DNA of 43,600 bases from an uncultured Muribaculaceae bacterium (GTDB lineage: Bacteria > Bacteroidota > Bacteroidia > Bacteroidales > Muribaculaceae), in contig CAMEPD010000011.1 in NCBI GenBank assembly GCA_945931475.1, positions 1 through 43,600 on the forward strand, read 5' to 3'. The notes under the pieces were generated by a model. That model did no database searches and was not told the DNA's origin. It was given only the letters and a program-made list of their open reading frames with translations. Position 1 is the first letter of the stretch. Each line of letters starts with the position of its first letter. The position numbers and the translations under genes were made by a program. Positions 736 to 31,734 of the stretch are shown here, piece by piece.

Positions 736-1500
736 TCAGCCCGCTACGAGTCCGCCGTCGATGAGGTAATGTGAACCGGTGACAAACGACGATGCCGGAG
801 ATGCCAGAAAGTAGACGAGCTCGGCTACTTCGGCCGGCTCCCCTACCCGTCCGCGGGCGTACTGGGCATTCTCCTCGGCCCAGAACTGTTCGGCCGTGCC
901 GCGCCCTTCGCGCTCGTAGCGCTTGAAGAGATTGTCAACCAAAGGAGTGCGTATCGTGCCGGGGCAAACGGCGTTGACTCGGATATTGTCGGGGCCGAGG
1001 TCGATGGCGAGCGAACGGGTAATCTGCCCGAGGGCCCCCTTAGTGAGCCCGTAACCGAAGCTCTGCGGCTTCCCCACGAACCACTGGTCGGAGCAGTTGA
1101 TGACCACGGAGCCGCCGCCGTTTGCGATAAGGTGGGGCACACATTCGCGGATGGTATAGACGGTGCCGAAGATATTGGTGTCAACCATCAGACGCAATTC
1201 TTCGTCGGAGATATTCATCAGTGTGTTCTTGCGATGGATGCCGGCATTGGCGAACACGCTGTCGAGTGTGCCGAAACGGTTCACGGTTGCCTCTACAGCA
1301 CGGTGAATCTCCTCGAGGCTGCGTGTCGAGCCTTCGGTGAACAGTACGGGGGCTTCGGCGCCCAGGCTGTCAATCAGGCCGGTCGCGGCGGGGACGTTGA
1401 TGTCCATGAAACCGACGTTCCACCCTTCGTTGATGAATTTGCGGACGCAGGACTCACCGATGCCGGTAGAGCCACCGGTAATAAATATTGTTCTCTTCAT
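736..1500 (-). CDS. Short-chain dehydrogenase/reductase (SDR) family oxidoreductase
   Basis: This is a 254-residue classical SDR, the usual length for the family, expected to be a soluble NAD(P)H-dependent oxidoreductase. The N-terminus carries the Rossmann cofactor motif TGGSTGIG (residues 8-15). NAG follows in the fourth strand, a Ser in the VINCSDQW strand, and the catalytic YxxxK pair appears as YGLTK. The late motif RVNAVCPGTIRTP and the C-terminal GSHYLIDGG are also typical. An Asp after the second strand (MDINVP) suggests preference for NAD over NADP. The substrate cannot be told from sequence; such enzymes are often annotated as 3-oxoacyl-ACP reductase or sugar dehydrogenase. It starts 11 bases after the rmuC stop, so the two are probably co-transcribed, although no functional link is obvious. 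Confidence 0.9.
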   Translation of the reverse strand: MKRTIFITGGSTGIGESCVRKFINEGWNVGFMDINVPAATGLIDSLGAEAPVLFTEGSTRSLEEIHRAVEATVNRFGTLDSVFANAGIHRKNTLMNISDEELRLMVDTNIFGTVYTIRECVPHLIANGGGSVVINCSDQWFVGKPQSFGYGLTKGALGQITRSLAIDLGPDNIRVNAVCPGTIRTPLVDNLFKRYEREGRGTAEQFWAEENAQYARGRVGEPAEVAELVYFLASPASSFVTGSHYLIDGGLVAG

Positions 1501-1511
1501 AATAAGTCAGA

Positions 1512-2954
1512 TTATTCAGCAAGTTCTTTGGCGTCGGGAGCGTCGTCGGCAACATTGGGTGATTCGATGGCGTCGGGAGCGTCGTCGGCTTCGAAATCCT
1601 CCGGAAGCCGTATCTGTTTCTTGGGTGTCAGGCCCAGTTTCTTCAGTTTCTCGAACTGCGAGATAATGCCACCGCGGCCCGAAAGGCGTGTCTGGGCCAG
1701 TTCAAACGACTTTTGAAGGCGCGTTATGTGTGTTTCGATATCCTTGAACGACTCCATGAATCCGGCCATGCGCGAATAGAGCTCGTTGCCGCGGGCCACA
1801 ATGCGTTCGACGTTCTTCTCCTGGCGGTCGTTCTGCCACAGGTGGTAGACCATACGCAGCATCGTCATTAGGTTTGACGGGGTAATGATGGCCACATGGT
1901 GGGAAAATGCGTACGATACAATGTCGGGCTGGGTGCGCACGGCGGCAAGGAACGACGAATCGGTAGGCATGAACATCATCACGATATCCACGGCGCCCTT
2001 TTCGAGCGACGCATATTCTTTGCGCGCGAGCTCGTCGATATGGCGGCGCACACTCTTGGCGTGATCCTGCAGCAGACGTTCCGATTCCTGCGGGTTGGTG
2101 TCCTGCACGTCGAGGGCCGAGGCGTAGGCGGTGAGCGAGACCTTCGAGTCGATAATCACCGAGCGCTCGTCGGGCAGACTCACCACCACATCGGGCCGGA
2201 ACCGGTTACCTTCGCTATCGGTAGTGCCACTCTGGAGGTAGAACTCATGGTCGCGACGCAGGCCGCTTTCCTCGAGGATATGCTCCAGCACCATTTCGCC
2301 CCAACGTCCCTGAGCGCGGTTATCGCCGCGGAGTGCACGTGTCAGTGTGGCGGCATCCTGGCCGATTCGGTCGGTCTGTTCGCGCATCTGCGCCACAGCC
2401 TGCTCCTGTTGCTGACGGAAGAGCTTCATGGTGCTCTCGAAGGTGTTCTGCAACTCTTTGCGGTTGACCTCCGACGCCGTACGGTTCTCGCCTGCAAGGC
2501 GTTTGAACTCCTCGAACTGACGGCGCACCGGCTCGAGCAACTCATTGATCTGGCGTGAGTTCTGTTCGGCAAGGGCCGTCTGACGCTTGGCGAGCGAATC
2601 AGCTTGCGTGCGTTCAATTTCGCTGCGTAGGGCGGCGAGGCGCTCCTGCCACTGCTTGTCGGCCTGATCGAACTGTCGCTGCATCCGCTCCTCGTCGCTG
2701 CGCCCCTGTGCGAGTACCTCCTCCACACGCGCCTGTGCTGTCGAAAGCTGCTGCGTGAGCCCCGACTTTTCAGCCTCGATGCGAGCCTTCTCGATTTCGA
2801 GTTTCGAGATATTTGAATCAATCTGAGCCTTCGCGTTTTCAAGTTCCGCAACGCGCGGCTGCAGTTGCCGGCGTGCAATCAGCCAGCCGGCTGCAGCTCC
2901 TGAAATCAGGCTTAAAAGAGCAATAAGTGCATATAACATATTTTTAAAAATCAA
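1512..2954 (-). CDS. rmuC: RmuC-family DNA recombination protein
   Basis: RmuC proteins have a membrane anchor, a long coiled coil and a PD-(D/E)XK nuclease-like domain; in E. coli RmuC limits inversion between short inverted repeats. All three parts are visible in this 480-residue protein: an N-terminal membrane segment (about residues 6-26, LYALIALLSLISGAAAGWLI), a coiled coil rich in Glu, Gln, Arg and Ala (about 35-205), and the conserved domain. That domain includes RAQGRWGEMVLEHILEESGL, NRFRPDVVVSLPD and VIIDSKVSL, the last holding the nuclease-type D-x-K element. The C-terminal tail is acidic and contains a duplicated DDAPDA motif encoded by an exact 22-bp repeat at 1529-1550 and 1568-1589. 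The gene precedes the SDR gene by 11 bases. Confidence 0.92.
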   Translation of the reverse strand: MIFKNMLYALIALLSLISGAAAGWLIARRQLQPRVAELENAKAQIDSNISKLEIEKARIEAEKSGLTQQLSTAQARVEEVLAQGRSDEERMQRQFDQADKQWQERLAALRSEIERTQADSLAKRQTALAEQNSRQINELLEPVRRQFEEFKRLAGENRTASEVNRKELQNTFESTMKLFRQQQEQAVAQMREQTDRIGQDAATLTRALRGDNRAQGRWGEMVLEHILEESGLRRDHEFYLQSGTTDSEGNRFRPDVVVSLPDERSVIIDSKVSLTAYASALDVQDTNPQESERLLQDHAKSVRRHIDELARKEYASLEKGAVDIVMMFMPTDSSFLAAVRTQPDIVSYAFSHHVAIITPSNLMTMLRMVYHLWQNDRQEKNVERIVARGNELYSRMAGFMESFKDIETHITRLQKSFELAQTRLSGRGGIISQFEKLKKLGLTPKKQIRLPEDFEADDAPDAIESPNVADDAPDAKELAE

Positions 2955-2957
2955 TAA

Positions 2958-3033
2958 TTAAGAATTAAAAATTAAGAATCGGTCGGTCGGCCATGAGGCC
3001 CAACGATGACAATTCTTAATTTTTAATTCTTAA
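2958..3033. repeat. 22-bp perfect inverted repeat, AT-rich
   Basis: The arms at 2958-2979 (TTAAGAATTAAAAATTAAG then AAT) and 3012-3033 are exact reverse complements across a 32-bp spacer. Each arm is itself built from two ATTAAGAAT-like units. It lies in the 163-bp gap between the Sel1-protein stop (3118) and the rmuC start (2954). It could end the upstream transcript as a hairpin or be a dispersed intergenic repeat. There is no T-run beyond either arm, so simple terminator function is not certain. Confidence 0.75.
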
Positions 3034-3117
3034 GGGGTATCACCCGGTCGGAGGCTCGATGGAGCTGCTGACCGTATTTTTCTTAGTAAGATTTTTATGA
3101 ATCCTGATTTCCGGCAA

Positions 3118-4689
3118 TCAGTCGACCAGTTTCAGGAGAGCGTTTACGGGCGAACTGTAGTCGCCTTTAAGAATCTCCTTGGCGCGGGCCTCGTTCTTAT
3201 CAACACCCCAACCGTTGGTATAGCATTCAGCGAGACGCTTGGCGGCATTGGCGTTGAGGTTGCCCTGCTCCTCTGCGCGGAGGTAGAGAGCGGTGGCGGC
3301 GGCGTAGTCGCGTTCGATAGTGCGGCCTTCGAAGAAGATGTCGCCGAGCGAGCATTCAGCCGGTCCGTAGTTGGCATCGGCAGCCTGATTTAGAAGCTCG
3401 ATAGCCTTGGGCATATCTTTTTCCACGCCTTTGCCGAGTTCGTAGAGAGTGGCGAGCAGATAAGCTGCCTGCGGGTCACCGGCTTTCACACACTCCTGAA
3501 GGAGTTTGGCGCCTTTTTTGGGGTTGTTCTTCTTATAGTTGTTATTGGCGAGGATTGTGCCTTCCATCACTTTGCCGTCGATTACCTTGGCCTTCGAAAC
3601 AGCTTTGAATGATTTGAGCGCGGCTTCAAAATCCTTGGCGTTATACTCCTTCAGACCCTTAAGGTAAACCACGTAGGGAGAATCAGGGATAGAGTCTTTG
3701 ATAAGAGATTTGAACTTGGCCGAGAGTTTGTTTTTGGCGCAAGCCATAGCATAGTAGCGTGTTGCCAGATCGTAGTTGACAGCGACGCCGTCGCCTGTGC
3801 GATAGCATTCACCGAGCTTCCACTGTGCTTCAACCACACCTTTGCCGGCTGCTTTGGCGTACCAGTTGAGTGCCTGCTCCTTATTGGGCATCAGACCGTT
3901 GCCGCTGAAGTAGCAGTTACCGACTTCATACATCGCCTGAGGCATTCCGGCATTGGCGGCTTTGAGCAGGTAGTCGGCACCGGCCTTGGCATCCTTTTTG
4001 ACTCCTCTACCGTCGAGCAGATTCTTGCCGTACCAGTAAGTGCAGGTAATATCGTTCTTGGCAGCTCCTTTGGCGAACCATTTTGAGGCCTCCTTGAAAT
4101 TCTTTTCGTTCTGGTAAATCATGGCCAGGCGGCGCGATGCGTCGACGCTACCCTTTTCGGCTGCTACTGTGTAATACTCTTTGGCGCGATCGAGGCTCTT
4201 TTTGGCGCCCTGGCCGGTTTCGTAGATGAACCCGAGCAGTACGTTGTCGAAAACCACACCCTTCTGGGCGCTCTTTGCCTTATTGGCAAGAAGGCTCTTG
4301 TTGTCCTCCTTAAGCGATTTGATATAGAGTTTGAGAGCGGTGATTGAGTCAGCTTCCACACCGTGGCCCTTCTGGTAACAGAGAGCGAGGTTGCCGATAG
4401 CTTGGGCATTCTCCTGCCTGGCAGCGCGCGAGAACCATTCGGCGGCTTTCTTGTAGTCCTGAGTCTGGCCGTTATCGCCTTTGTAGAACCAGATTCCTAC
4501 TTCGTTCTGTGCAGCCGCGTCACCGGCCTTTGCCTTGTCGGCGATAGCCTGGATGCTGTCGCGTTCGTTGTTGACCGTATTTTCTACGACGGGGGCTTTC
4601 GTCTTCTTTGCCTTGGGGGCCTTGGCTCCGGCGGCTGCGGGGAGCAGAGTTGCAGTGACGATTGCTATGGTGAGAATTGTATTTTTCAT
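3118..4689 (-). CDS. Secreted Sel1-like repeat (SLR) protein, 523 aa
   Basis: An N-terminal signal peptide (MKNTILTIAIVTATLLPAAAGA) sends the protein to the periplasm or outer membrane. Nearly all the rest consists of Sel1-like helical repeats of about 36 residues. They are recognisable by recurring A-x-x-x-LG/G-x-x-Y-x-x-G-x-G-V and A-x-x-W/Y-Y-x-x-A-A elements, for example AMYEVGNCYFSGNGLMPNKEQALNWYAKAAGKG. About ten repeats are visible. SLR proteins are scaffolds that bind other proteins, often in cell-envelope signalling; no catalytic motif is seen. It is the last gene of the minus-strand signalling cluster, 32 bases after the acidic protein gene. A second SLR protein is encoded at 5451-6629, and the kinase carries a related segment at its C-terminus. 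Confidence 0.88.
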   Translation of the reverse strand: MKNTILTIAIVTATLLPAAAGAKAPKAKKTKAPVVENTVNNERDSIQAIADKAKAGDAAAQNEVGIWFYKGDNGQTQDYKKAAEWFSRAARQENAQAIGNLALCYQKGHGVEADSITALKLYIKSLKEDNKSLLANKAKSAQKGVVFDNVLLGFIYETGQGAKKSLDRAKEYYTVAAEKGSVDASRRLAMIYQNEKNFKEASKWFAKGAAKNDITCTYWYGKNLLDGRGVKKDAKAGADYLLKAANAGMPQAMYEVGNCYFSGNGLMPNKEQALNWYAKAAGKGVVEAQWKLGECYRTGDGVAVNYDLATRYYAMACAKNKLSAKFKSLIKDSIPDSPYVVYLKGLKEYNAKDFEAALKSFKAVSKAKVIDGKVMEGTILANNNYKKNNPKKGAKLLQECVKAGDPQAAYLLATLYELGKGVEKDMPKAIELLNQAADANYGPAECSLGDIFFEGRTIERDYAAATALYLRAEEQGNLNANAAKRLAECYTNGWGVDKNEARAKEILKGDYSSPVNALLKLVD

Positions 4690-4721
4690 TGCTGTGTGAT
4701 AATTTCCTGTGAATACTTCGA

Positions 4722-5240
4722 TTAAATGAAATCCATACCTGACACGGGGTCGTCCATTGCCATATCAGAGCCGGCGTCCTCGGCCGGTTCATCGACCGGA
4801 GTATCATCGATAATAATATCACCGGTATCAATTTCGGCTATCAGGTCATCAGTAACTTCGTCAACAGAATTTTCGTTTTCCATCGATGAGATTGGTTCTT
4901 CGTTTTCAACTTCGAGCTCGTCGATTTCAATCTCTACAATATCGTCTTCGATTTCAACTCCGGAATCACCATTTTCGGCGCCCTGTTCGTGGCCCTCATT
5001 ATTGTGGGCGTGACCCTGTGCGTCGGTGTGTGCGGCTGAAGCGTCACCTGCTTCTGCAGTTTCAACTTCGTTCGGGTCATCATCTTCCTTGTTTTCCATA
5101 AAGTGGTCTGCGGCGTATGCTGCACCGGCACCTGTGGCTGCCGAACCGGCCATTGCTGCTACACGGGCAGCTGTGTTACCACCTTTTTTCTTTTTGTCTT
5201 CAGCTTTCTTTGACTGCTGTTCGTTGTTCTTTGTTTCCAT
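4722..5240 (-). CDS. Small acidic protein with Lys-rich N-terminus and Ala/Gly-rich hydrophobic segment
   Basis: I do not recognise a family. The 172-residue protein starts with a charged, Lys-rich stretch (residues 1-21). An Ala/Gly-rich hydrophobic segment follows (about 24-45, AARVAAMAGSAATGAGAAYAA), which may be a membrane or glycine-zipper helix. The remainder is strongly acidic and low in complexity. It resembles the larger acidic protein at 9998-10894 in layout and shares the short motifs EPISS and LIAE. The two are therefore probably diverged paralogues within one cluster. It lies 32 bases upstream of a Sel1-repeat gene and 210 bases after another. No catalytic residues are evident; an adaptor or anchoring role is a guess. 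Confidence 0.75.
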   Translation of the reverse strand: METKNNEQQSKKAEDKKKKGGNTAARVAAMAGSAATGAGAAYAADHFMENKEDDDPNEVETAEAGDASAAHTDAQGHAHNNEGHEQGAENGDSGVEIEDDIVEIEIDELEVENEEPISSMENENSVDEVTDDLIAEIDTGDIIIDDTPVDEPAEDAGSDMAMDDPVSGMDFI

Positions 5241-5450
5241 ATCGTTTTAGTTTTTTGTTTTCTGATTTGAGGTTGTTTACTGTAAAGACGGCGTTTGGAG
5301 CTGAATCTATCACTGCGTTAAAAAAAAATTGAAAAAATTTCATGGTGAAAAGATTTATCATCCAAGGCACGAAGTTATTGAAAAAATTCCTGATTTCCAA
5401 TATATACAGAATATTTTTCATTCAACCGACGCCGTACAGGTGTACAAATA

Positions 5451-6629
5451 TCACGGCATGATGCGGTTGTTGGTCAGCCATTGATAAATTTTCATGGCAT
5501 CGGGGTCACCGAGTGAGGCGGCTTCAGAAACAAGGGCGTCGGCGTGTGCCACATCTATGGCCGTGCCGCGACCGTAACGGTACATCGTGGCGAGTTTGCG
5601 CAGGGCGTCGCATTTTACGTCAACCGGCACTGTGGCCGCATCGTAATTGTCGAGCGTGTACTGATAATTTTCGATGGCTCTCGGGTAATCAATCCGGTCG
5701 CTGTAATAATACGTCGCCAACAGATAGGATGCACGGGGATGTTTTGCGGCCACTCCGGTAAGCAGCCGGGACGCCTTCTCCTTGTCGGGAGTAACGGATT
5801 CGTGTCCTGTCATGAGCCACTGTCCGGCATTGTAAGCCGATGCCTCGTCACCGTAAGCCGCTCCCTTCTCCCAGGAGGCGATTGCAGTCTTGAAATCCGA
5901 GGGTTCATGGATCAGGGCATCCACGAACTGAGCTTTCCCCATAAGGAAGTACAGCCGGCCCATATCGCGGCGCACGGAATCCGGATCGGCAGCGACATTG
6001 CTCCGGGCATCGATGGCCTGTCGGAAGGCGCTGATGGCCCGGCGCGTATCGTCGGCCGACAAAGTGCCCAAAGAGCGTTTCAGATAGCAATTGCCGAGCA
6101 ATTCGTGTTTATCGGCAACGTACTGCTGACGTTCTGTACCCGTAATTGTCTCGGGCTTTGTGGGCTCGAGCAGTTCAATCGCCTTATCGACATTCGCATC
6201 GGCGATTGTTCCCTTCAGGCACATCTCGGCCAGGTGGTACGAGGCCACGAACCGTGTTTCTTCGTCGGTATTTCCGGCGGCCAACGCATTCTCCATATAG
6301 TGCCATCCAAGGAGATTGTCTGTCTCCACTCCCGTGCCCCGGAGGTAGCACTCTCCGACGTATCGGCAGGCCTTCGCCCGTAACGGATTGTCCTGGTTGT
6401 CGGCGGCGAGGCGCATCCAACGGGCCCCTTCGGCCGGATTATCAGAGTAGCCGTTCGCACCTTTCAGATAGTTGAGGGCAAGCACTGTCTGAGCCTCACC
6501 GACGCCTTTCGAAGCGAGTTTCTCGAGTTTCGCGGGTTTCATGCGAGTATAGTCCGTAGCGGCGGATGCCGTCGGAATTGTGAGCGCTATGACCGACAAT
6601 ATCAGTAGATTAAAGAGCAAACGTTTCAT
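5451..6629 (-). CDS. Secreted Sel1-like repeat protein, 392 aa
   Basis: The start chosen is the ATG at 6627-6629, which gives a clean signal peptide (MKRLLFNLLILSVIALTIPTASA). A longer frame opens at 6713, but it would overlap the kinase gene and put 28 non-hydrophobic residues before the signal. The mature part consists of Sel1/TPR-type helical repeats, for example AARWMRLAADNQ, CRYVGECYLRGTGVETDNLLGWHYMENA and YGDEASAYNAGQWLMTG. Such repeats are protein-binding scaffolds. The gene starts 7 bases after the kinase stop, so co-expression with the kinase is very likely. It may interact with the Sel1-like periplasmic end of the kinase; that is inference. Confidence 0.88.
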   Translation of the reverse strand: MKRLLFNLLILSVIALTIPTASAATDYTRMKPAKLEKLASKGVGEAQTVLALNYLKGANGYSDNPAEGARWMRLAADNQDNPLRAKACRYVGECYLRGTGVETDNLLGWHYMENALAAGNTDEETRFVASYHLAEMCLKGTIADANVDKAIELLEPTKPETITGTERQQYVADKHELLGNCYLKRSLGTLSADDTRRAISAFRQAIDARSNVAADPDSVRRDMGRLYFLMGKAQFVDALIHEPSDFKTAIASWEKGAAYGDEASAYNAGQWLMTGHESVTPDKEKASRLLTGVAAKHPRASYLLATYYYSDRIDYPRAIENYQYTLDNYDAATVPVDVKCDALRKLATMYRYGRGTAIDVAHADALVSEAASLGDPDAMKIYQWLTNNRIMP

Positions 6630-6636
6630 GGAATTG

Positions 6637-8289
6637 TCAATTGTCGAAAGGATAACCGCCGTTCTCGCCGTTGTCATAGTAGCCGAGGGTCTTGAGCTGA
6701 TTGGCCACCGCACGGGCTTCGCCTACTCCAACACCGGAGGCTTTCGCTTTACGCACCCAACGGTTGGCTGCGTCACTGTCGTCGCGACTCATACTCATCG
6801 TTGCCAGTTTGGAATATGCCTTGGCATACCCCTTGTTGGCCAGTGCCTCATAATCCTTATATGTGCGCGCTCTGGCGAATTGTGCATCGAGGCTCTCCTC
6901 CTGAGGCTGCTCAGGCTTATTGTCGGCAGCACTCGGTTTCTCGGGCTTGGATTCGTCGGCGGTAGATTTATCAGGTCGGGTCTCTTCCTGTTTTTGGCCA
7001 TTGACTGCGGGAGTTTCTTCACCGGTGGGAGTCGATACGATTACTGAATCAACCTCCTCAGAAACTTCTTTCTCCGGATTGTCAGTCCAGATGGTATCGC
7101 CGTTTTCGTCAATTATGAACGACTGCTCGTCGGGCTGTTGACCCACGGTGGAGTTGCACGACTTTACGGCAAATACACCGATTATACCTGCACAGACCAC
7201 ACCGGCGGCAATAGCTGCCGGAAGGATATAACGCTTCAGATCAATCGGCTTGGCCGGTTGCGGTTCGCGAGGCTTGGCCGGCTTTTTGACATCGATTTTC
7301 TTTGTCTTTTGGTCGTAGGATTTCCTCTTTTTCCCGCCAATGAGAGTGGTTTCATGAGCGTCGTCGCCATCGGCTTCCGAAATATCGATATCCAAGTCAG
7401 CGGCAAGAAGCTCCACCGACTGGGTGCGCTCCTGTTTGTCGCGCTTAAGAGCCTTGATAAGTGCCGACTGAAGGGTTTCGGGCACATCATCGTCAAGTAA
7501 CGACAGTATTTTCTTCGGCGAAATTTCACTCGATTTCGGGGGCCATTTGGCAGTGATAAGGTACAGCATTGTGGCTGCCAGGGCGTAAACATCGGCCTGC
7601 GGCGTGAAGGTCGTAAGACCCTGATACTGCTCGGGCGGAGCGAAGCCGTCGGTACATCCGGCTGCCGTAAGCGTCGAGGTGGCTTTGCCCTTCTTGTCGT
7701 AATGCTTGGCCAGTCCGAAATCTATAATTACCGGACGTACGGCGCCGCTGTCGAGATAGGTCAGGATAATGTTCTCGGGCTTTATGTCGAGGTGCGTTAT
7801 CCGCTTTTCATGCAGGAGTGCCATAGCCTGCAGCAGCGGACGCATCACGCTCTTGGCCTGTTCGGGAGTAAGCGGTTTGTTCTTCTGCCCGCGGATAAAA
7901 TGCAGCAGGTCGTCGCCCTGGATATACTCCATAATATAATAGGCCGTGGAGTTGGTGCGGAACACCTCGTGCACGGTCACGATATTGGGATGCGAAACAT
8001 TCTGGCTGCTCAGGCGCCGGGCCTCGGTGATGAAGTCATCGATACCCGCCTCGATTGTGTCTTTGTTTGTCGGGAAATACGAAATCTGGCAGGTGGCCTC
8101 GCGCAGGCACAGCTCTTTGCGGAAATACTCTTTCATGGCAAAGTGCCGGCCGTCGGAGAGGCGCGTCACCAGGTAGGTTATTCCGAAGCCGCCCTGACCG
8201 AGTACGCTGTCAACCCGGTAGCTGTTGCTTCCGGAGTTGATGACAGCTCCTATAGGGAGCGCTCCAACTATCTTTTTTTCTTCACTCAT
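6637..8289 (-). CDS. Transmembrane Ser/Thr protein kinase (Hanks type) with Sel1-like C-terminal tail
   Basis: The 550-residue protein has a cytoplasmic kinase domain, one membrane helix and an extracytoplasmic tail. Kinase motifs are complete: glycine loop GQGGFG (31-36), Lys53 in FAMKEY, helix-C Glu near 89, HLDIKPEN catalytic loop (166-173), DFG (190-192) and APPE (217-220). The usual HRD arginine is Leu, so this is a non-RD kinase that may not need activation-loop phosphorylation. A Lys/Pro-rich juxtamembrane stretch leads to the membrane helix (about 354-376). The outer part is acidic and Pro/Glu-rich, then ends in a helical segment (ALANKGYAKAYSKLATMS...) resembling one or two Sel1 repeats. 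The ATG at 8287-8289 (MSEEKK) is preferred over an upstream GTG at 8311-8313. A PP2C gene lies just upstream and a Sel1-protein gene 7 bases downstream. Confidence 0.93.
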   Translation of the reverse strand: MSEEKKIVGALPIGAVINSGSNSYRVDSVLGQGGFGITYLVTRLSDGRHFAMKEYFRKELCLREATCQISYFPTNKDTIEAGIDDFITEARRLSSQNVSHPNIVTVHEVFRTNSTAYYIMEYIQGDDLLHFIRGQKNKPLTPEQAKSVMRPLLQAMALLHEKRITHLDIKPENIILTYLDSGAVRPVIIDFGLAKHYDKKGKATSTLTAAGCTDGFAPPEQYQGLTTFTPQADVYALAATMLYLITAKWPPKSSEISPKKILSLLDDDVPETLQSALIKALKRDKQERTQSVELLAADLDIDISEADGDDAHETTLIGGKKRKSYDQKTKKIDVKKPAKPREPQPAKPIDLKRYILPAAIAAGVVCAGIIGVFAVKSCNSTVGQQPDEQSFIIDENGDTIWTDNPEKEVSEEVDSVIVSTPTGEETPAVNGQKQEETRPDKSTADESKPEKPSAADNKPEQPQEESLDAQFARARTYKDYEALANKGYAKAYSKLATMSMSRDDSDAANRWVRKAKASGVGVGEARAVANQLKTLGYYDNGENGGYPFDN

Positions 8290-8343
8290 TATACTGGCAG
8301 GATGATGCCGCACGCCCCCGGAACAGAGGTCTGCGGCATCAGG

Positions 8344-9297
8344 TTAATGGATAAGTCTATGTATCAGATTTGAGATTTTCGAAGATATTTTGCTTACCAC
8401 CGAGACAGCGGGCTCAACTTCGTGTGCTTCGGGCATCGGCTTCTTGAGCGGTTCGGTAGAGCAACTCACGTCACCGTCAGTGTCATCACCCCCGACAGGC
8501 CTGGGAATTATCTGCGGTTCCTCGTCGGTATTGTCGTATTTCACTGAATCTACCGGAATGAGATATGCCGTGTTGTTGTCGGTGCTTTCCTTTGACAGCT
8601 CGGCTATGAGTTGTATCTTCTGCCGGTCGTCGGTCGACGAATCGGAGAGAATCTCCGTGAGGCGTTCGTCGCTGACACAATGCAGTACACCGTCGCTGCA
8701 GAGGAAGAAGAAATCGCCCGGTTCGACATCGTTCAACACCATTACTGTTGCACCGGGGCGCTCTTCGCCCGGCTCCACCCATGTGAGGCAACGCGTGATG
8801 ACGTTGCTCTTCGGATGGTTGATGGCTTCTTCCGGCGTGATGCATCCGGCGTGAACGAGCGCATTCACCAGCGAATGGTCGTCGCTGCGGTAGATAACTC
8901 CTTTGCCGGGACGCACCTGATAGATGCGGCTGTCGCCCATGTGGGCGCAGGTTACGCCACCGGCGTGGAATGTTACAAAGGTCATGGTGGTGGCCATCTC
9001 GCGTGTGTCGTCGTCCATGCGGCGGAACAGTGCGCGATAGGTCTGGTCAAGGAGCAATGCGAATTCCGAATCGAGGAATCTCTCGTTCAGGTCAACGCGC
9101 TCCATATAGCGGCCCATGGCCTCGGCTACGGTCTGACTGGCGACTTCGCCTTTATCCTGGCCGCCCACTCCGTCGCACACTACGAAAGTGCGCTGTGAGG
9201 CTGAGGGCTTGTTCTCGTCGGGGTATCGCGCGTCTTCCTGATTCTTGCGCTTTCCCAACTGGCAGAATGAATATGCTTGTCGAAGAGTGATTTTCAT
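8344..9297 (-). CDS. PP2C-family Ser/Thr protein phosphatase
   Basis: This 317-residue cytoplasmic metal-dependent phosphatase probably reverses the action of the adjacent kinase. The metal-binding and core motifs appear in order: NQED near residue 20, CDGVGG (41-46), the AHMGDSRIY strand (GDSR at 121-124), SDDHS (138-142), CSDG (200-203) and DNNT (240-243). The core ends near residue 250. The remaining 65 residues are acidic and then form a short, possibly amphipathic helix (SVVSKISSKISNLIHRLIH), which could attach the enzyme to a membrane or partner. Its start overlaps the stop of the upstream FHA gene by 4 bases (ATGA-type coupling), and the kinase gene follows after 54 bases. Confidence 0.93.
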   Translation of the reverse strand: MKITLRQAYSFCQLGKRKNQEDARYPDENKPSASQRTFVVCDGVGGQDKGEVASQTVAEAMGRYMERVDLNERFLDSEFALLLDQTYRALFRRMDDDTREMATTMTFVTFHAGGVTCAHMGDSRIYQVRPGKGVIYRSDDHSLVNALVHAGCITPEEAINHPKSNVITRCLTWVEPGEERPGATVMVLNDVEPGDFFFLCSDGVLHCVSDERLTEILSDSSTDDRQKIQLIAELSKESTDNNTAYLIPVDSVKYDNTDEEPQIIPRPVGGDDTDGDVSCSTEPLKKPMPEAHEVEPAVSVVSKISSKISNLIHRLIH

Positions 9298-9995
9298 CCT
9301 AATCTGTCTTTTTCGAAACGGAACCGTGTCTGGCCCAATACAAAGATATCACCGAAATTCATATAAGCTTCGTCTTCTTCGGCCAACACCTGGTCATTGT
9401 ACAGAACCGGATTGGCGGCCTTCTTTACCCGGAACTTGAAGTAGATGCCTTCGTTTTCACTCCGGCCAACCTTAATCTGAACCGACTGACGCGATATCGA
9501 CATATCACCTTTGATTGAGATGTCGGAGGGACGCATGGGGTCGGCGCGGCCTACGGTGTTGACGCCCATGCGAAGCGGGAACTCCTTGTTGAACCAGCCT
9601 TTGCGTATCATCACCACCTTGCCCATATACCTGTTCAAGTCGTAGGTCAGGAGTTTGGTCTTCTCTTTTACCTCGATCTGCATCCGGCCTTTGCACTTAG
9701 GGCAACCGATGATTAGACTGCCTGCTTTCGGCGGGGTGTACATCTTTTCGTACTTTCCGCAGTGAGGGCATTTGATAAGCCCCTCTGATCCGACTATGAA
9801 TTCCTCATCGAGCCTTATGGGTTCCTTCGTCGAATTGTCAGGCATATCGGCAGGGGTGAATTCCACAATGTTCGCTGTGCCGCAGTACGGGCACTTGATG
9901 GGGAACTTGCCCGGCTTGAAGGGGTTTTTTACCTTCAGTTTCCTGCGACACTCCTCATTACAGCAGGTGATGATTTTGCTTTCGGATTCGCTCAT
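9294..9995 (-). CDS. Double zinc-ribbon plus FHA-domain protein
   Basis: The 233-residue protein has two probable zinc ribbons at the N-terminus. The first uses Cys11/12, Cys16 and the CPYC pair at 35/38; the second uses CPHC at 76/79 and CPKC at 98/101. A C-terminal forkhead-associated domain follows (about 140-228), with the strand NTVGRAD (146-152) and the phosphothreonine-contact region SISRQS (166-171). FHA domains bind phosphothreonine peptides, so it is a likely reader of the marks set by the neighbouring kinase and removed by the PP2C enzyme. It overlaps the PP2C gene by 4 bases and starts 2 bases after the acidic-protein gene. The zinc ribbons resemble MJ0042-like ribbons; whether they bind nucleic acid or protein cannot be told. 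Confidence 0.88.
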   Translation of the reverse strand: MSESESKIITCCNEECRRKLKVKNPFKPGKFPIKCPYCGTANIVEFTPADMPDNSTKEPIRLDEEFIVGSEGLIKCPHCGKYEKMYTPPKAGSLIIGCPKCKGRMQIEVKEKTKLLTYDLNRYMGKVVMIRKGWFNKEFPLRMGVNTVGRADPMRPSDISIKGDMSISRQSVQIKVGRSENEGIYFKFRVKKAANPVLYNDQVLAEEDEAYMNFGDIFVLGQTRFRFEKDRLG

Positions 9996-9997
9996 TT

Positions 9998-10894
9998 TCA
10001 GACAAGTTCAGTAAAGTCGTCGCCAAGTGAATCGAAGTCGGTTTCACCTTCGATATGTTCGTCGGCAGCTAAGTATGTGCCGTTGTTTTCAACATCGAGC
10101 TGTGCGTCGTCGACAGTCATTGCCGGAGCCTCGATAAAGCCTTCGTTTGTGGCGATAAGTTCGCCGTCGGCTGTGCCTATTACATCGAACTGCTGGTCGC
10201 CGTCGAGGTCAATCATCGAAGCCTGCTGCCCTTCGGCAGTGGTAAAGGTCGCAACGGTTATCTCCTGACCGTCCTCGGTGAACTGGGTGGTGATGTTGTC
10301 AAAAGTCTGGATCTCGTTGGCATCGATATCGTTGGGGTCGATTTCCACCTCGGCAATCAGAGCCTCGGAGATTTCACCGGGGTCTACGCCGTCGGTGGGA
10401 TTCTCCACGTTGACGGGTTCCTCTTGAGCGGGTTGCTGCGCCACATTCTCCTGACCGTTTGCAGGTTCCTGGCTGTTTGTGGGTTCCTGACTGTTAGTGG
10501 GCTCCTGATTGTTAGTGGGTTCCTGAGCTTCTCCGGGCTGTTCGGGTGTGCTGATAGATGAGATAGGTTCATCATCCTGCGCAGGCTGCTGAGCGGGTTG
10601 CTGTGCAGGCTGCTGCGCAGCGGGTTGCTGTGCTGCCGGCTGGTGCCCGGGCTGACCAGATACAGCTGCCTGGGTGGCTTCCTGTGCTACATCTGCTGAT
10701 TCGCTGACTGCGTCTTCAACCTCGGGCTTCTCGGGAGCTACGGGTTCTTCCGACTGATGCATTGCGAATGCGGTGGCTCCTACTGCGGCCACGCCGGCAA
10801 CACCGGCTGCTACGCCCGCCTTGAGGTTGCTGTTATCTTTTTTTGACTTGTTCATGGGATTATTCGGTGTATTGAAAGGCTTTGTTTCTGACAT
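9998..10894 (-). CDS. Acidic, Q/P-rich repetitive protein with Ala/Gly-rich hydrophobic segment
   Basis: I do not recognise a family. The start at 10892-10894 (MSETKPFNTP) is favoured; the frame also contains an ATG 12 codons later and is open further upstream. The 298-residue product has a Lys/Asn-rich N-terminus and a hydrophobic Ala/Gly/Val helix (about 25-44, AGVAAGVAGVAAVGATAFAM). A low-complexity centre follows with AQQP repeats and four EPTNSQ-like repeats. The C-terminal part is acidic and ordered-looking, and includes DLDGDQQFDVIGTADGELIA. It shares layout and the motifs EPISS and LIAE with the 172-residue protein at 4722-5240. It abuts the FHA gene (2-base gap). It may be a membrane-tethered adaptor or phosphorylation target; Thr and Ser are plentiful. 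Confidence 0.8.
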   Translation of the reverse strand: MSETKPFNTPNNPMNKSKKDNSNLKAGVAAGVAGVAAVGATAFAMHQSEEPVAPEKPEVEDAVSESADVAQEATQAAVSGQPGHQPAAQQPAAQQPAQQPAQQPAQDDEPISSISTPEQPGEAQEPTNNQEPTNSQEPTNSQEPANGQENVAQQPAQEEPVNVENPTDGVDPGEISEALIAEVEIDPNDIDANEIQTFDNITTQFTEDGQEITVATFTTAEGQQASMIDLDGDQQFDVIGTADGELIATNEGFIEAPAMTVDDAQLDVENNGTYLAADEHIEGETDFDSLGDDFTELV

Positions 10895-10988
10895 AGTTGT
10901 AAATATTAAAAGTGAATATGTATGTTTTTTAGTATAATTAAGGTTTACGGGGTTAACTATATGTGCTTTTATATTGGGGTTGGTCAAT

Positions 10989-11726
10989 TTATTTCTTTAC
11001 GGGAGCGGGCCAAGTGGCAATCACAGCTTTTGCCATTGACTTCGAACCCACGAGCTTGGGATGCTGTGTATCGTTGCTGTGGATTTTCACATCTTTGATT
11101 ACATATTTGGCAAGTTCGGCCATGGTAATCTTTTTATCGCCGTTGAAGTCGGCTTTACCGCGGATGCCCTTGATGAGAGCCTGCGTGAAGTACCCTGCGC
11201 CGAGGAAGGGGCTTTCGGCAGAAACCTCCTGAGGAGCGCTGGCCAGAAGGAATGCCATGCCATTCTTGCCGGCGGTTGTGGCCCATGCGTTCCCGGTGGC
11301 GGCGTTTGTCATTGTACCGGCGAAGCAGGCGTCAACGAAAACAATCTTCTCGCCTGCGGCTGATTTGCTCAGCTTTTCCACTACATCCTCGTAAGGGATA
11401 AGGCGGTCGGTTGCGCAAATGTAACCGGGGGCTCCGTGACCTGAGTAGAAAAAGATGATGCGGTCCTTGGCCTGAGCGCGGTTGCAGATTGCCGAGAGTT
11501 TCTCCATTACATTGTCGTAAGTGACGTTCTTGCTGGTGAGGATGGTGATATCCTTGGTCTGGGTGGCCATTACATCGCGGAAGTTTTTGGCGTCCTTGGT
11601 GGTCTGCCCGAGGTCGTTGGCGGCGCCGTAGTAGTTTGATACGCCGGTGATGAGTACGAAAGTGCGGGCTTGAATAGCGCCGACGGCCATCAGGGCCAGC
11701 ATCAACGCAAAAATAATTCTTTTCAT
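10989..11726 (-). CDS. Exported caspase-like (C14 family) cysteine peptidase
   Basis: The protein has a signal peptide (residues 1-20, MKRIIFALMLALMAVGAIQA) and then a caspase-fold domain. The catalytic dyad is visible: His97 in FFYSGHGAPG and Cys134 in VFVDACFAG, each after a hydrophobic strand as in metacaspases. The N-terminal YYGAANDLGQTTKDAKNFRDVM segment is also typical. Residues 193-204 (DFNGDKKITMAE) match an EF-hand calcium loop, with D, N and D at positions 1, 3 and 5 and Glu at 12. Calcium control is therefore possible. At 245 residues it is essentially a p20-p10 unit without extra domains. It sits between two FHA genes in the phospho-signalling cluster. The signal peptide puts it outside the cytoplasm, so its substrates would be envelope proteins. 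Confidence 0.88.
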   Translation of the reverse strand: MKRIIFALMLALMAVGAIQARTFVLITGVSNYYGAANDLGQTTKDAKNFRDVMATQTKDITILTSKNVTYDNVMEKLSAICNRAQAKDRIIFFYSGHGAPGYICATDRLIPYEDVVEKLSKSAAGEKIVFVDACFAGTMTNAATGNAWATTAGKNGMAFLLASAPQEVSAESPFLGAGYFTQALIKGIRGKADFNGDKKITMAELAKYVIKDVKIHSNDTQHPKLVGSKSMAKAVIATWPAPVKK

Positions 11727-11769
11727 GATTGATATTGCTTTTTATTGATTTCAGCTAAACGGGTTTGAA

Positions 11770-12411
11770 TCAGTGGGCTTTGCAACGCGAGCACTGCTTA
11801 TGGGTTACATCGAACTCCGAGAGCGGACGGTCACATTTGGGGCAGACTATAACCTTTTCGCGGCGTTTGCGGATAGCCTTCAGGCGCGGCATATCATTCT
11901 TGAAGATGAAGCCTACAAGCACCGGTGCCACGGCGATAAGGATATATCGGGTTGTGGGGTCGATACCGCCGCCCAGAAGCATACATGGGAGTACCAGCAG
12001 TAATCCGGAGCATTTGGCAATCCAGCCGTTGCGTTCAATCACCTTTTCCTTCTCGTGCTCGGCTTCAAGCTGTAGCTCCATGGCTTTGCTGAGCTGTCGG
12101 AATTCATACTCGTACGATTCCGGGGAATCGGCAATCACGTGATGCGCCATGAATGTAAACCCGAAGGTATCGCCTGTGCCGAGGCGGATAGTGGTGTCGG
12201 GCGTAATCTGCAGGCGGGAGACGCGCCGGAAGTCGCCGTTGTTGTTTCGTATAAATGTGCCGTTGGCCGATTTCAGATCCTCAAGAATCCAGGTGCCGTC
12301 GGGGTTTATCGTTATTTTGGCGTGGTTGTGGCTTACTGACTTTTTACCTTCGGGAATTACAACCATCCCTTCAGCGCCACGACCTATGATGAATTCTTTA
12401 ACTTCTTCCAT
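11770..12411 (-). CDS. FHA domain - two transmembrane helices - zinc ribbon protein
   Basis: The ATG at 12409-12411 is chosen because the FHA fold begins at once (EFIIGRGAEG); upstream residues in the open frame look like leader DNA. The 213-residue protein has an FHA domain (about 5-90) with the hallmark residues Gly-Arg at 10-11, SVSHNHAK at 25-32 and the NGT loop at 50-52. A charged coiled-coil-like linker follows (98-127). Two membrane helices (about 134-149 and 155-171) come next. The C-terminus is a zinc ribbon using CPKC (190/193) and CSRC (207/210). FHA domain and ribbon would both face the cytoplasm. It is the first gene of the signalling cluster, directly behind a -7-type promoter, and precedes the caspase-like gene by 43 bases. 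Confidence 0.88.
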   Translation of the reverse strand: MEEVKEFIIGRGAEGMVVIPEGKKSVSHNHAKITINPDGTWILEDLKSANGTFIRNNNGDFRRVSRLQITPDTTIRLGTGDTFGFTFMAHHVIADSPESYEYEFRQLSKAMELQLEAEHEKEKVIERNGWIAKCSGLLLVLPCMLLGGGIDPTTRYILIAVAPVLVGFIFKNDMPRLKAIRKRREKVIVCPKCDRPLSEFDVTHKQCSRCKAH

Positions 12412-12439
12412 TTTGTTGTTAATTGCTGTGTTGTATTTA

Positions 12440-12447
12440 CAAAGATA
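12440..12447 (-). promoter_or_regulatory. -7 promoter box for the signalling cluster
   Basis: The minus strand reads TATCTTTG, a full match to TAnnTTTG, about 28 bases before the FHA-TM gene start. No good -33 TTTG is present 19-21 bases upstream, so the promoter may be weak or need an activator. Confidence 0.5.
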
Positions 12448-12480
12448 GTATATTTCCTGAAAACTATCACCAGCAGACGT

Positions 12481-12514
12481 TATTTTTTTCAAAATGATGT
12501 ATTTTTTTCAAAAT
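12481..12514. repeat. Two exact 15-bp direct repeats between divergent promoters
   Basis: TATTTTTTTCAAAAT occurs at 12481-12495 and again at 12500-12514, a 19-bp period. The pair sits between the minus-strand -7 box (12440-12447) and the plus-strand -7 box (12520-12527), next to the latter. The position would suit a shared operator or an A/T-rich upstream element. Confidence 0.6.
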
Positions 12515-12519
12515 TGTAC

Positions 12520-12527
12520 TAACTTTG
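12520..12527 (+). promoter_or_regulatory. -7 promoter box for the M6 metalloprotease gene
   Basis: TAACTTTG matches TAnnTTTG exactly. The -33 region is T-rich but has no TTTG. The expected start point near 12533 leaves a leader of almost 100 nt, in which I see no known riboswitch. Confidence 0.5.
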
Positions 12528-12629
12528 CGATGTTAAACATAGCACTTCACCTTTTGTCGGATAATAGGCTGAATCCGTAGCATAAATATTCGCCGGGGTG
12601 TAAGGCGTTGAAGAGAATGTTCCCAAAAT

Positions 12630-15398
12630 ATGAAAATCTTACGCATTTCGTTATTAGCCACTATTGCGGCAATGTGCTGCCAGAATGCTTTGGCAGTACC
12701 TGCCAAGCCCGGTCTGATGAAGTACACGCAGCCCGGCGGCTCGGTAGTCGAACTCCGCTTATGCGGAGATGAAAATTTCCACTACTATGTTTCGGCCGAC
12801 GGGCAGAAACTTCTCATGCAGAAAGACGGCCGGTTTGTCAACGCACGGCTGGCCTCCGACGGACGCCTTGTGGAATCGGCTGTGGCTGTCAGTCCGGCCA
12901 CATTAAGAGATTTCAAGCCACAGAAGGTACGCGGCGTCTCGCATAAGGTGAAACCTGCGGCCACCGCCGGGCAGCTGAAGTCATTTAGCGGTCTATTCCC
13001 CGACGCATCGTTCCCGGCAAAGGGCACACAGAAGGTGCTGGTAATCATCGTACAATATAAAGATGTGAAATTCAACATCGACAATCCGCTCGATTACTTC
13101 AACCGCATGCTCAACGAAGAGGGATTCAGCGATTACCTTGGCACAGGTTCGTGCCGCGACTACTTCATTGCATCGTCGAACGGCTTGTTCACCCCCGAGT
13201 TCGATGTTTACGGCCCTATCACCCTGGCGAACAATATGTCGTATTACGGCGGCAATGACTGGTACGGCAACGACAGTAATCCTCAAAAAATGGTAATTGA
13301 AGCCTGCCAGCAACTCAACGATGATGTCGACTTCTCGCAGTACGACCGCGACGGCGACGGTTACATCGACAATGTATATGTATTTTATGCCGGCCGCGGC
13401 GAGGCATCCGGCGGTTCGGCCGATTCCGTCTGGCCGCACTCATGGAATGTCACCGCCGGCGAGTACCAGTCATACATATTCGACGGCGTTCAGCTTGACC
13501 GCTATGCCTGCTCCAACGAATGGGATATGTCGTCAGAAGGTCTCGGCTACCGCCCGGCAGGTGTCGGAACATTCTGCCATGAGTTCTCGCACGTGATGGG
13601 GCTTCCGGACCTTTACGCTACCAGCTATACTTCAAGTTTCACCCCCGGAGAATGGTCAGTGATGGATTACGGGCCGTATAACCATGATGGCTGCACTCCA
13701 CCACTATATTCGGCTTTCGAACGTGCGGCACTCGGTTACATCAATCCTACCGAGATTACGGGCAAAGCCAACATAACACTCAGGACAATAGATACCGGCG
13801 ACGCGTGCGTAATCAAGACCACCAAGGCCAACGAATATTTCCTCTTCGAGAACCGTCAGCAGCAGGGTTGGGACACATACATTCCCGGTCACGGCATGCT
13901 CGTATGGCACATCGACTACAACGGCTCAGTCTGGGAGAAAAATACGGTCAACAATACGCCGTCACACCAGTATGTCGACCTCATCGAAGCGGATGGAACG
14001 CAGTCGAAATATTCACGCGACGGTGATTCATTCCCCGGTGCTTCGAACATCAATTCGTACACTTACGCCGGTACCCCGTCGTTCCGTCCATGGAACGGCA
14101 CAAATCTCGGCCTCGACATTACCGACATCACCGAGACCGACGGCAAAATAATGTTCCGCGTCAACGGCGGTTTCTCGGCAGCTACAGCCCCGGTTGCACT
14201 GGAAGCAACCGATGTCAAGGCAGGTAGTTTTGTCGCCAACTGGGATGCTCAGGATAACGTTCAGAGCTACACATTAATACTTTATGGCAAACTCGGGCGC
14301 CCGGGAAGCGAGGGTGCCGAGGAGTTCTCGGAACTCCGCCGCTTCAATGCCGGTCTCGAAACCTCATTCCAGGTCACCAATCTCACCCCCGAAACTGAAT
14401 ACCGCTACACTGTCAAAGCCGAGGACGGTTTCCAGGGAAGCCCCGAATCAAATGTAATCTCCGTTACAACCACTGCCCCGACCTTCGATTATTTCGCACC
14501 GGTTGCAACCGAGGCCGAAGCTGTGACCGCAGAATCGTTCACAGCCACTTGGGAGGCAATGGAAGGCGCCACAGAGTACTTCCTCGATGTCAATACCGTA
14601 GTCGAGGGAGAAAGTGTAGAAGAGACAATTGACTTCACCGACGGCATGGAAAATCTGCCCAAGGGCTGGAGCTCATCGTCGCAGGGCACCTATGGCATGT
14701 CAAGCTACGCCGGCAACGCCGTTCCGTCGCTACGTATGGCCGCCGACAACGATATACTCACATCGCCCAAACAGCCCAACGGCATCAATAACGTAAAATT
14801 CTGGCACCGCGGCAACGCTACGACAGCCGACGAAAAGATTGTGCTGTCGGGCAATATCGACGGCGCATGGAAGGAGCTCGCAACCTTCGACATTATCACA
14901 GACAAGGGCGGTTCCACAATCGACTACGCTATCGAGCAGAAAGGAGTGACACAGGTGCGCCTGACCTTCAAACGCCCGACAAAGGGTGCCGTCGCCATCG
15001 ACGACGTATGTATCTCTGTCCGCGGCGACGAGGTCGAGACCCCGCTGTTGCCCACCGTTTCGGCCGGTTCAGCAATCAGCTATCTGGTCGACGGCCTCGC
15101 TCCCGAGACCCTTTACAGCTACTCGCTGACGGCAACCGACGGCAACTACACATCGCTCCGTTCGAATGTAATTAAGGTTGTCACCGACAAGAAGGAATCG
15201 GCTGCCGGCGAAGTTGTAGCCGACCGTCTGGTATTCGCCCTGGCAGGCCGCAAAGTGGTGGCCGACCGCAATATCACTGTTTATGACATTACCGGCCGTC
15301 GCATTGCCGGAAATGCCCGTACGGCCGAGCTCCCCATGGCAGGTATGTATATCATCACCGCCGAAGGGGCCAAAGCTGTAAAAATCGTAGTAAAATAA
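12630..15398 (+). CDS. Secreted M6-family metalloprotease with FnIII and C-terminal sorting-like domain
   Basis: The 922-residue protein starts with a signal peptide (about 1-22). The protease domain (about 100-510) contains the zinc motif HEFSH at 317-321, followed by VMGLPDLY and later EWSVMDYG. This is the arrangement of M6 (immune inhibitor A-like) peptidases: HExxH, a downstream aspartate and a Met-turn. After the protease come fibronectin type III-like repeats, an interrupted jelly-roll segment (about 650-800, starting near DFTDGMENLPKGW) and a second FnIII stretch. The C-terminus has ITVYDITGRRI and ends AVKIVVK, like a type IX secretion type A sorting domain. It is probably released or held at the cell surface to cut host or dietary proteins. 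A terminator follows directly. Confidence 0.9.
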   Translation: MKILRISLLATIAAMCCQNALAVPAKPGLMKYTQPGGSVVELRLCGDENFHYYVSADGQKLLMQKDGRFVNARLASDGRLVESAVAVSPATLRDFKPQKVRGVSHKVKPAATAGQLKSFSGLFPDASFPAKGTQKVLVIIVQYKDVKFNIDNPLDYFNRMLNEEGFSDYLGTGSCRDYFIASSNGLFTPEFDVYGPITLANNMSYYGGNDWYGNDSNPQKMVIEACQQLNDDVDFSQYDRDGDGYIDNVYVFYAGRGEASGGSADSVWPHSWNVTAGEYQSYIFDGVQLDRYACSNEWDMSSEGLGYRPAGVGTFCHEFSHVMGLPDLYATSYTSSFTPGEWSVMDYGPYNHDGCTPPLYSAFERAALGYINPTEITGKANITLRTIDTGDACVIKTTKANEYFLFENRQQQGWDTYIPGHGMLVWHIDYNGSVWEKNTVNNTPSHQYVDLIEADGTQSKYSRDGDSFPGASNINSYTYAGTPSFRPWNGTNLGLDITDITETDGKIMFRVNGGFSAATAPVALEATDVKAGSFVANWDAQDNVQSYTLILYGKLGRPGSEGAEEFSELRRFNAGLETSFQVTNLTPETEYRYTVKAEDGFQGSPESNVISVTTTAPTFDYFAPVATEAEAVTAESFTATWEAMEGATEYFLDVNTVVEGESVEETIDFTDGMENLPKGWSSSSQGTYGMSSYAGNAVPSLRMAADNDILTSPKQPNGINNVKFWHRGNATTADEKIVLSGNIDGAWKELATFDIITDKGGSTIDYAIEQKGVTQVRLTFKRPTKGAVAIDDVCISVRGDEVETPLLPTVSAGSAISYLVDGLAPETLYSYSLTATDGNYTSLRSNVIKVVTDKKESAAGEVVADRLVFALAGRKVVADRNITVYDITGRRIAGNARTAELPMAGMYIITAEGAKAVKIVVK

Positions 15399-15415
15399 CT
15401 GTTTATAATAAAGCG

Positions 15416-15455
15416 ACGGAAGCCGGTATACCATATATCCGGCTTCCGTATTTTC
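15416..15455 (+). terminator. Rho-independent terminator after the M6 protease gene
   Basis: An 11-bp perfect stem has arms at 15416-15426 (ACGGAAGCCGG) and 15439-15449, a 12-nt loop, and is followed by ATTTTC. It separates the two secreted-protein genes, although its T-run is short and some readthrough is possible. Confidence 0.75.
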
Positions 15456-15466
15456 AATTATTCAAC

Positions 15467-18650: not shown

Positions 18651-18744
18651 GTTTGTAACTCCGGGTTGCTTTTTCGTACTGTCCAACCGTGGAAGCCATC
18701 AGTTCATTTGACGGTATCCGTCCGAAAAGAGCCGACTTGATTTT

Positions 18745-18942
18745 GTGTATCCGTCCGAAATCGGCCAACCTGTAAGTTATTACGAAATAATCTGCCCCAC
18801 AACATCTCCCTGATAAAGAGTCTGAAAGACTCCATTCGTGTAGCCGGGGGTTGAGCGAACAAAGTGAGCGATACCCCCGGATAATTCGTGTAGTATCAAA
18901 GAGTCTGTAAGACTCGGTGTTACCGTGGAACGCAGTCCCCGA
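18745..18942 (+). repeat. Left copy of a ~200-bp inverted, hairpin-rich repeat
   Basis: This unit is repeated in inverted orientation at 19073-19272 with high identity over its whole length. Within it are three hairpins in a row: GAGTCT-GAA-AGACTC (18819-18833), a stem with CCGGGGG/CCCCCGG ends (about 18844-18880), and GAGTCT-GTA-AGACTC (18901-18915). Short open frames across it look like by-products of the repeat. The layout suggests a modular palindromic repeat of the REP/BIME sort or the remnant of a mobile element. The roughly 130 bases between the copies are not recognised. Confidence 0.8.
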
Positions 18943-19072
18943 CTCACTAACCAAGAATCTGATTTTGATGGCGAAAGATTTGTTTTGGCAGAGGGTGTTA
19001 TCAAGAATCAAAAAAAACGGAGGGCCGGAACGTCAATTCATTCGGCAGGTTGCCGTTTCGCGACAATTATAC

Positions 19073-28713: not shown

Positions 28714-28757
28714 CAGTATATCTGTATCGTTTCAAACGAATATCATTCAAACGGGTA

Positions 28758-30784: not shown

Positions 30785-30826
30785 ACATTGAATATATAAG
30801 GAAACAGGTGAATGGTTCACCTGTAA

Positions 30827-31696: not shown

Positions 31697-31734
31697 TTCT
31701 CAGTATTAAAAGGAAACGCAAGGCTGGAGGGGCA

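Follow-up and report, generated by a model that had tools for sequence, protein, structure and literature searches.

In type VI secretion a kinase, a PP2C phosphatase and an FHA protein form a threonine-phosphorylation trio, and the kinase can be under the control of a periplasmic protein encoded with it, according to the excerpted text of PMC6082577. In the LytTR regulatory systems HdrRM and BrsRM, as an excerpt of PMC6193735 describes them, a stand-alone LytTR gene is followed by a membrane protein gene, and 9-bp direct repeats lie 11–13 bp apart upstream of the promoter. Many bacterial caspase homologues are without a known role; in one survey 70 of 217 operons containing such a gene could be given no function (PMC3501461, in part). 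Caspase and trypsin appear as alternative proteases in conflict systems (PMC7159879, in part). The present analysis concerns nine genes at 3118–12411 of a 43,600-nucleotide stretch, here called the window, from an uncultured Muribaculaceae bacterium (GCA_945931475.1, contig CAMEPD010000011.1, positions 1–43,600). The best reading of these genes is that envelope signalling here may have taken over the threonine-phosphorylation logic of type VI secretion and joined it to an exported metacaspase-like effector. We put at about one half the probability that they represent a phosphothreonine signalling cassette, conserved in Bacteroidota and spanning the inner membrane, with an exported protease arm in many of its versions.

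A first-pass annotation of the window had described a minus-strand cluster encoding a kinase, a PP2C phosphatase, two FHA–zinc ribbon proteins, an exported caspase-like protease, two acidic proteins and two Sel1-repeat proteins. A frame check of the window recovers all nine open frames on that strand at the positions claimed, and the family assignments hold, FHA2 being recognized by Pfam and FHA1 through an alignment of 15 relatives. The features are as follows.

12412..12629, minus strand: intergenic region where relatives carry a LytTR gene; the LytTR gene is absent
11770..12411, minus strand: FHA2, with an FHA domain, two hydrophobic segments and a C-terminal zinc ribbon (Pfam FHA, 2.6e-12)
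10989..11726, minus strand: CASP, exported caspase/metacaspase-like peptidase with a predicted signal peptide (Peptidase_C14, 5.3e-18)
9998..10894, minus strand: ACID, acidic-tail protein (no Pfam family above cut-off)
9294..9995, minus strand: FHA1, with N-terminal zinc-ribbon-like motifs and a C-terminal FHA-like domain (alignment of 15 proteins)
8344..9297, minus strand: PP2C phosphatase (PP2C_2, 7e-13)
6637..8289, minus strand: KIN, serine/threonine kinase with a C-terminal ectodomain (Pkinase, 7.2e-38)
5451..6629, minus strand: Sel1-repeat protein B, probably secreted (Sel1, 2.9e-17; relative at L033 6342-7514)
4722..5240, minus strand: second acidic protein, with the K-rich, Gly-Ala and acidic layout of ACID (no Pfam family)
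3118..4689, minus strand: Sel1-repeat protein A, probably secreted (Sel1, 1.4e-58)

The tight packing described earlier is also present: FHA1 and PP2C overlap by 4 bp, and gaps of 2 bp and 7 bp separate acidic protein from FHA1 and kinase from Sel1 protein. Starts at 6629 (Sel1 B), 8289 (kinase), 10894 (acidic) and 12411 (FHA2) were placed by eye, and all are open from ATG; for FHA2 the ATG at 12411 was preferred over the TTG at 12492.

The evidence that these genes belong together comes first from 149 genomes of the family, that of the window included. Some caspase match is present in 83 of them, and caspases of the present type (E 1e-40 or better) occur at 41 places in 38 genomes. FHA1 finds a match in 27 genomes and FHA2, at E 0.001, in 54; the FHA1 neighbourhoods that were fetched contain similar neighbours in a similar order. 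At the level of genomes, with FHA2 taken at E 1.7e-12 or better, 27 carry both markers, 11 the caspase only and 2 FHA2 only. The test of linkage used all listed FHA places (92 for FHA2, 31 for FHA1) and 78 other caspase places among the matches listed: an FHA gene lies within 10 kb of 34 of the 41 caspases of this type but of none of the 78 others. Twenty control caspase neighbourhoods of 6.8–20 kb each yielded no kinase, PP2C, FHA or LytTR match, and Sel1 was matched in one. Scattering of the genes in relatives, which the first-pass annotation had named as the sign of chance proximity, is not what is seen. Judged from sequence, the neighbourhood is a conserved unit and not a product of chance.

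The composition of this unit emerges from a caspase profile applied to named genomes, where counts refer to the best 80 of 326 relatives, many of them on short contigs, and to neighbours within 9 kb on the same strand. One or other FHA gene accompanies 74 of the 80 caspases (FHA1 66, FHA2 63), followed by the kinase (56), LytTR (50), PP2C (49), an acidic protein (48) and Sel1 (42), and all 453 cassette-family matches share the caspase strand. Among the 40 loci whose flanks extend 4 kb or more before and 6 kb or more after, FHA1 is found at 36, FHA2 at 32, the kinase at 29, LytTR and PP2C at 26 each, and acidic and Sel1 genes at 21 each. The recurrent order is LytTR-FHA2-caspase-acidic-FHA1-PP2C-kinase. 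Where both members of a pair are present they adjoin at 43 of 46 loci for LytTR and FHA2, 46 of 47 for acidic protein and FHA1, 45 of 49 for FHA1 and PP2C, 43 of 49 for caspase and acidic protein, and 46 of 63 for FHA2 and caspase. The usual first gene in relatives, which the original gene list lacked, encodes a stand-alone LytTR protein of about 125 residues (29 bits in Pfam for the one relative tested, against a cut-off of 22.6).

Hosts of the best 80 include Muribaculaceae, Prevotella-type bacteria, Phocaeicola and other Bacteroidales, and also Runella, Larkinella, a metagenome-assembled genome of Flavobacteriales and a few others; Phocaeicola coprophilus An818 (L093) and Leyella stercorea An906 (L082) are among the named carriers, as is Muribaculum caecicola NM86_A22, on a contig (L060) that stops after PP2C. 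Within the genus of the window strain the cassette is present in 5 of 10 genomes, the window's own included. Pairwise distances of five components correlate across 41 loci, again including the window, with r of 0.71–0.86, values reached in none of 500 permutations, although species relatedness is uncorrected in this comparison. The correlation is a sign of co-inheritance and not by itself of function.

That caveat is one of several points that weigh against a fixed signalling cassette. The caspase profile was derived from loci first found through FHA1, so that some ascertainment is built into the counts, and in the family 7 of the 41 places with this caspase type lack an FHA match within 10 kb, some of these lying near contig ends. 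Kinase, PP2C and an FHA gene all occur within 9 kb of the caspase at only 23 of the 40 well-flanked loci, and PP2C adjoins the kinase at 19 of the 43 loci with both; the gene set is therefore variable. LytTR is absent at the window locus and unmatched in the window genome, which is 96.7% complete. No shared operator was found upstream of LytTR in relatives, and 9-bp direct repeats show no enrichment over shuffles in 48 LytTR upstream regions with guessed gene starts. The tail of the window kinase, finally, gives 8.4 bits as its best Sel1 domain and no Pfam Sel1 match, and Sel1 is matched in 3 of 86 kinase frames longer than 450 residues. The earlier proposal of a Sel1-like kinase tail, and with it that of sensing through Sel1 contacts, thus draws little from sequence. 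What endures of the proposed pathway is a conserved cassette in which kinase, PP2C and FHA genes stand with those for an exported caspase and an acidic protein; the nine genes give way as a unit to the recurrent seven-gene order, in which the caspase is itself optional, as Sel1 genes are beside it.

Gene sets that lack the caspase bear on which part of the cassette is the more constant. Order-level searches, which sample families evenly and so give no measure of cassette frequency, reveal FHA2 relatives in genomes without a match to this caspase type. Four such genomes, from a different family (L226-L229), carry the row LytTR-FHA2-FHA1-PP2C-kinase, and the stretch fetched from each gives no caspase match. 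Two of these (L226, L227) have an acidic protein of 80 to 96 residues between FHA2 and FHA1 and, after the kinase, a secreted protein whose C-terminus looks like a beta-barrel by eye; L226 also has a kelch-repeat protein. At L232 the LytTR-FHA2 pair stands alone. A related set in the window's own family (L240) contains an FHA-FHA-trypsin fusion at 7867-9432, together with further FHA, PP2C and kinase genes. On the strength of these sets, the phospho-switch varies less than the protease, which can be exchanged or missing. One kinase of L240 bears an RHS-repeat tail, and rows similar to that of L240, with long FHA proteins, are found at L241 and L242.

Catalytic and binding residues are conserved in the individual proteins. 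KIN has one hydrophobic, probably membrane, segment near residues 358–378 that by eye precedes a C-terminal ectodomain. The acidic residues of the PP2C metal site (D42, D122, D202 and D240) are invariant in an alignment of 16 proteins. FHA2 has by eye two hydrophobic segments that are probably membrane-spanning, and the four cysteines of its zinc ribbon (CPKC..CxxC) are invariant in 12 of 12 aligned proteins. FHA1 is not called by the Pfam FHA model, its sole Pfam match being Yop-YscD_cpl at 20.2 bits (cut-off 33.2); the alignment displays the FHA pattern GR, S, N, G downstream of the Cys-rich motifs. In CASP the dyad His97/Cys134 is invariant, a predicted structure agrees with Pfam on a caspase fold, and an EF-hand-like loop lies at 193–204. 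D45, also invariant, and D132, present in 13 of 16 alignment rows, may, by analogy, be the two S1 aspartates relevant to cleavage after Arg or Lys. Since 73 of the best 80 caspase relatives have a signal-peptide-like start, the protease probably acts outside the cytoplasm.

ACID has a K/R-rich N-terminus, a Gly/Ala-rich hydrophobic segment and a long acidic tail, nearly free of K and R, with a DxDGDxxxD motif; the model of its C-terminal domain has a predicted local distance difference test (pLDDT) score of 61.6, and Foldseek finds nothing similar to it at E 0.001 or below. Across 43 acidic proteins the last 200 residues contain 70 K or R in 8566 residues. This scarcity first fitted an Arg/Lys-specific protease for which the tails would be resistant decoys; that idea was rejected because L226, which has no caspase, encodes a short acidic protein that is also without K or R, so that the scarcity does not have to come from the caspase. 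A conserved phosphothreonine was likewise discarded: in many relatives D, N or S replaces the T of a TVxDAE-like stretch. Acidic proteins of L050 (9020-9961), L052 (7131-8075) and L233 (8943-9443 and 11705-12643) share a stretch resembling SFxxAFAxARxExGxGGxFxxxGxxYxTxxxxEW; the three tested from L052 and L233 match no Pfam family above cut-off. Sel1 A is the best window match of several proteins of about 520 residues in related loci, and by eye both Sel1 proteins begin with signal-peptide-like sequences.

Gene set, order, conservation, key residues and the predicted caspase fold are observations; the interactions, their direction and the output are inferred, and the signalling cassette would work in the following way. 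A membrane kinase would be adjusted from the outer side by way of its ectodomain and of secreted repeat proteins encoded beside it, here the Sel1 proteins, and would phosphorylate cytoplasmic targets, possibly the acidic protein. Soluble FHA1 and membrane-bound FHA2 would bind the phosphorylated form, and PP2C would reset the switch. FHA2 might hold or release the LytTR regulator; because it directly follows LytTR in most relatives with both, transcription driven by LytTR is probably what the cassette usually brings about. The window strain, having no LytTR gene that could be found, must use another route. The exported metacaspase-like protease probably trims an envelope partner, for instance a repeat protein or the ectodomain of the kinase. 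A switch that spans the membrane, with transcriptional output in most hosts and a protease arm in many, is suggested by a type VI-like trio where type VI markers are nearly absent, and by the pairing of LytTR with a membrane protein. Upstream of the cassette, TATCTTTG at 12440-12447 resembles the -7 box of Bacteroidota. Just upstream of LytTR at L101, L107, L112 and perhaps elsewhere, short inverted repeats rich in GC precede T runs and look by eye like terminators or attenuators.

A more elaborate version of this scheme is speculative. The phosphothreonine circuit in the cytoplasm and, in the periplasm, a Ca2+-dependent metacaspase specific for Arg/Lys might regulate one another across the inner membrane, with the caspase clipping the kinase ectodomain or a Sel1 partner so as to start or terminate signalling and FHA2, as a phospho-gated membrane anchor, releasing LytTR. 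Such a two-sided switch, if true, would be a class of signalling in which Ser/Thr phosphorylation is combined with regulated proteolysis outside the cytoplasm and with transcription through LytTR.

The emphasis could instead lie on extracytoplasmic proteolysis, the caspase processing secreted Sel1 and acidic proteins while the phospho-genes only set expression. The signal-peptide-like starts of the caspase and both Sel1 proteins fit this arrangement, as do four loci (L104, L106, L121, L128) that keep caspase, FHA1 and Sel1 without a nearby kinase or PP2C match. Persistence of the kinase/PP2C/FHA part without the caspase, and co-inheritance of five components in the 41 loci, are harder to accommodate, and this alternative is doubtful.

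Somewhat less likely still is a role in cell suicide or phage defence, in which the kinase/FHA switch would sense infection and unleash the caspase. The patchy distribution of the cassette, with both markers in 27 of 149 family genomes and a presence in half of the same-genus genomes, speaks for a defence system, and so does the trypsin-like protease of L240, given the alternation of caspase and trypsin in the conflict systems excerpted from PMC7159879. The kinase matches many defence models, but these look like generic kinase-domain matches, and Pfam and defence-model scans of the nine genes find no known toxin or nuclease. A related FHA-FHA-PP2C-caspase row is carried by a Runella plasmid, yet the plasmid collection gave only distant caspases. 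The caspase-less cassette and the signal-peptide-like start of most caspases argue further against this role. The plasmid row (L266, Runella rosea, 1044-6775) reads VWA, FHA, hypothetical, FHA, PP2C, caspase, with WG-repeat and OmpA genes adjoining; caspase relatives in the plasmid collection number 7 records, the best at 28.6% identity. The phage-collection match H8 is an unannotated 5-kb faecal clone.

Remote control of a type VI system encoded elsewhere is very improbable and largely refuted for the window genome: the trio of PMC6082577 (in excerpt), a match of FHA2 to the TagH model (VI_FHA) at 6.3e-7 and cassette matches in 2 of the 4 TssC-positive genomes (G012, G056) speak for it, but the TagH score is 29.5 bits against a cut-off of 120.25, which places FHA2 outside TagH/Fha, and TssC is found in 0 of 149 family genomes with PF05943 and 4 of 149 with the Bacteroidota model PF17541 (0 of 14 control genomes), the window genome being negative for both, in keeping with the earlier report of no type VI structural gene.

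Beyond the cassette, two large divergent secreted genes at 12630-18511 encode an M6-type peptidase with fn3 and a CARDB/cleaved-adhesin protein, and the C-termini of both products look by eye like type IX sorting tails. Nested imperfect inverted repeats at 18700-19270, with 82-nt arms that are 95% complementary and 250 nt between them, adjoin a transposase gene at 19561-21072.

In gut Bacteroidales, named strains among them, conserved gene order ties one caspase subfamily to a circuit of kinase, phosphatase and reader, which makes regulation of a bacterial caspase directly testable. The cassette also suggests that the phosphorylation logic of type VI secretion is a general module with exchangeable outputs.

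Comparison with described systems indicates known phospho-control logic in what would be an undescribed gene combination with a caspase; as the first-pass annotation had supposed, no pathway with this gene set was found in the open-licence literature. The KKP (kinase-kinase-phosphatase) module likewise has kinase and phosphatase genes together, but the start of its abstract, which mentions kinases and a phosphatase, names neither caspase nor LytTR (PMC11341870). As in the VMAP/iSTAND ternary and EACC1-caspase conflict systems, caspase or trypsin interchange in related sets; the caspase systems in the excerpts of PMC7159879 and PMC8195603 have other partners. CASP scores 74.9 bits with the EACC1-caspase model NF047832 (cut-off 140) and so is not of that type, and none of the nine genes matches the MoxR or vWA families of the VMAP/iSTAND pair in Pfam; MoxR/vWA-like frames, named by eye, lie at 27676-32730 of the window, more than 15 kb from the cassette. 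In its caspase fold and His/Cys dyad CASP resembles the C14B metacaspases and orthocaspases, but it is predicted to be exported, lacks a prodomain and is encoded inside a phospho-signalling cassette. Like HdrRM and BrsRM, relatives have a LytTR gene followed by a membrane-protein gene (43 of 46 loci with both), an arrangement not seen in the window genome; unlike them, the membrane protein combines an FHA domain, membrane segments and a zinc ribbon. The closest parallel is the type VI PpkA-PppA-Fha pathway, which shares with this locus a membrane Ser/Thr kinase (its segment placed by eye), PP2C, FHA and, putatively, a periplasmic partner of the kinase encoded alongside; the cassette is distinguished by its two zinc-ribbon FHA proteins, its acidic protein and caspase and, in relatives, LytTR.

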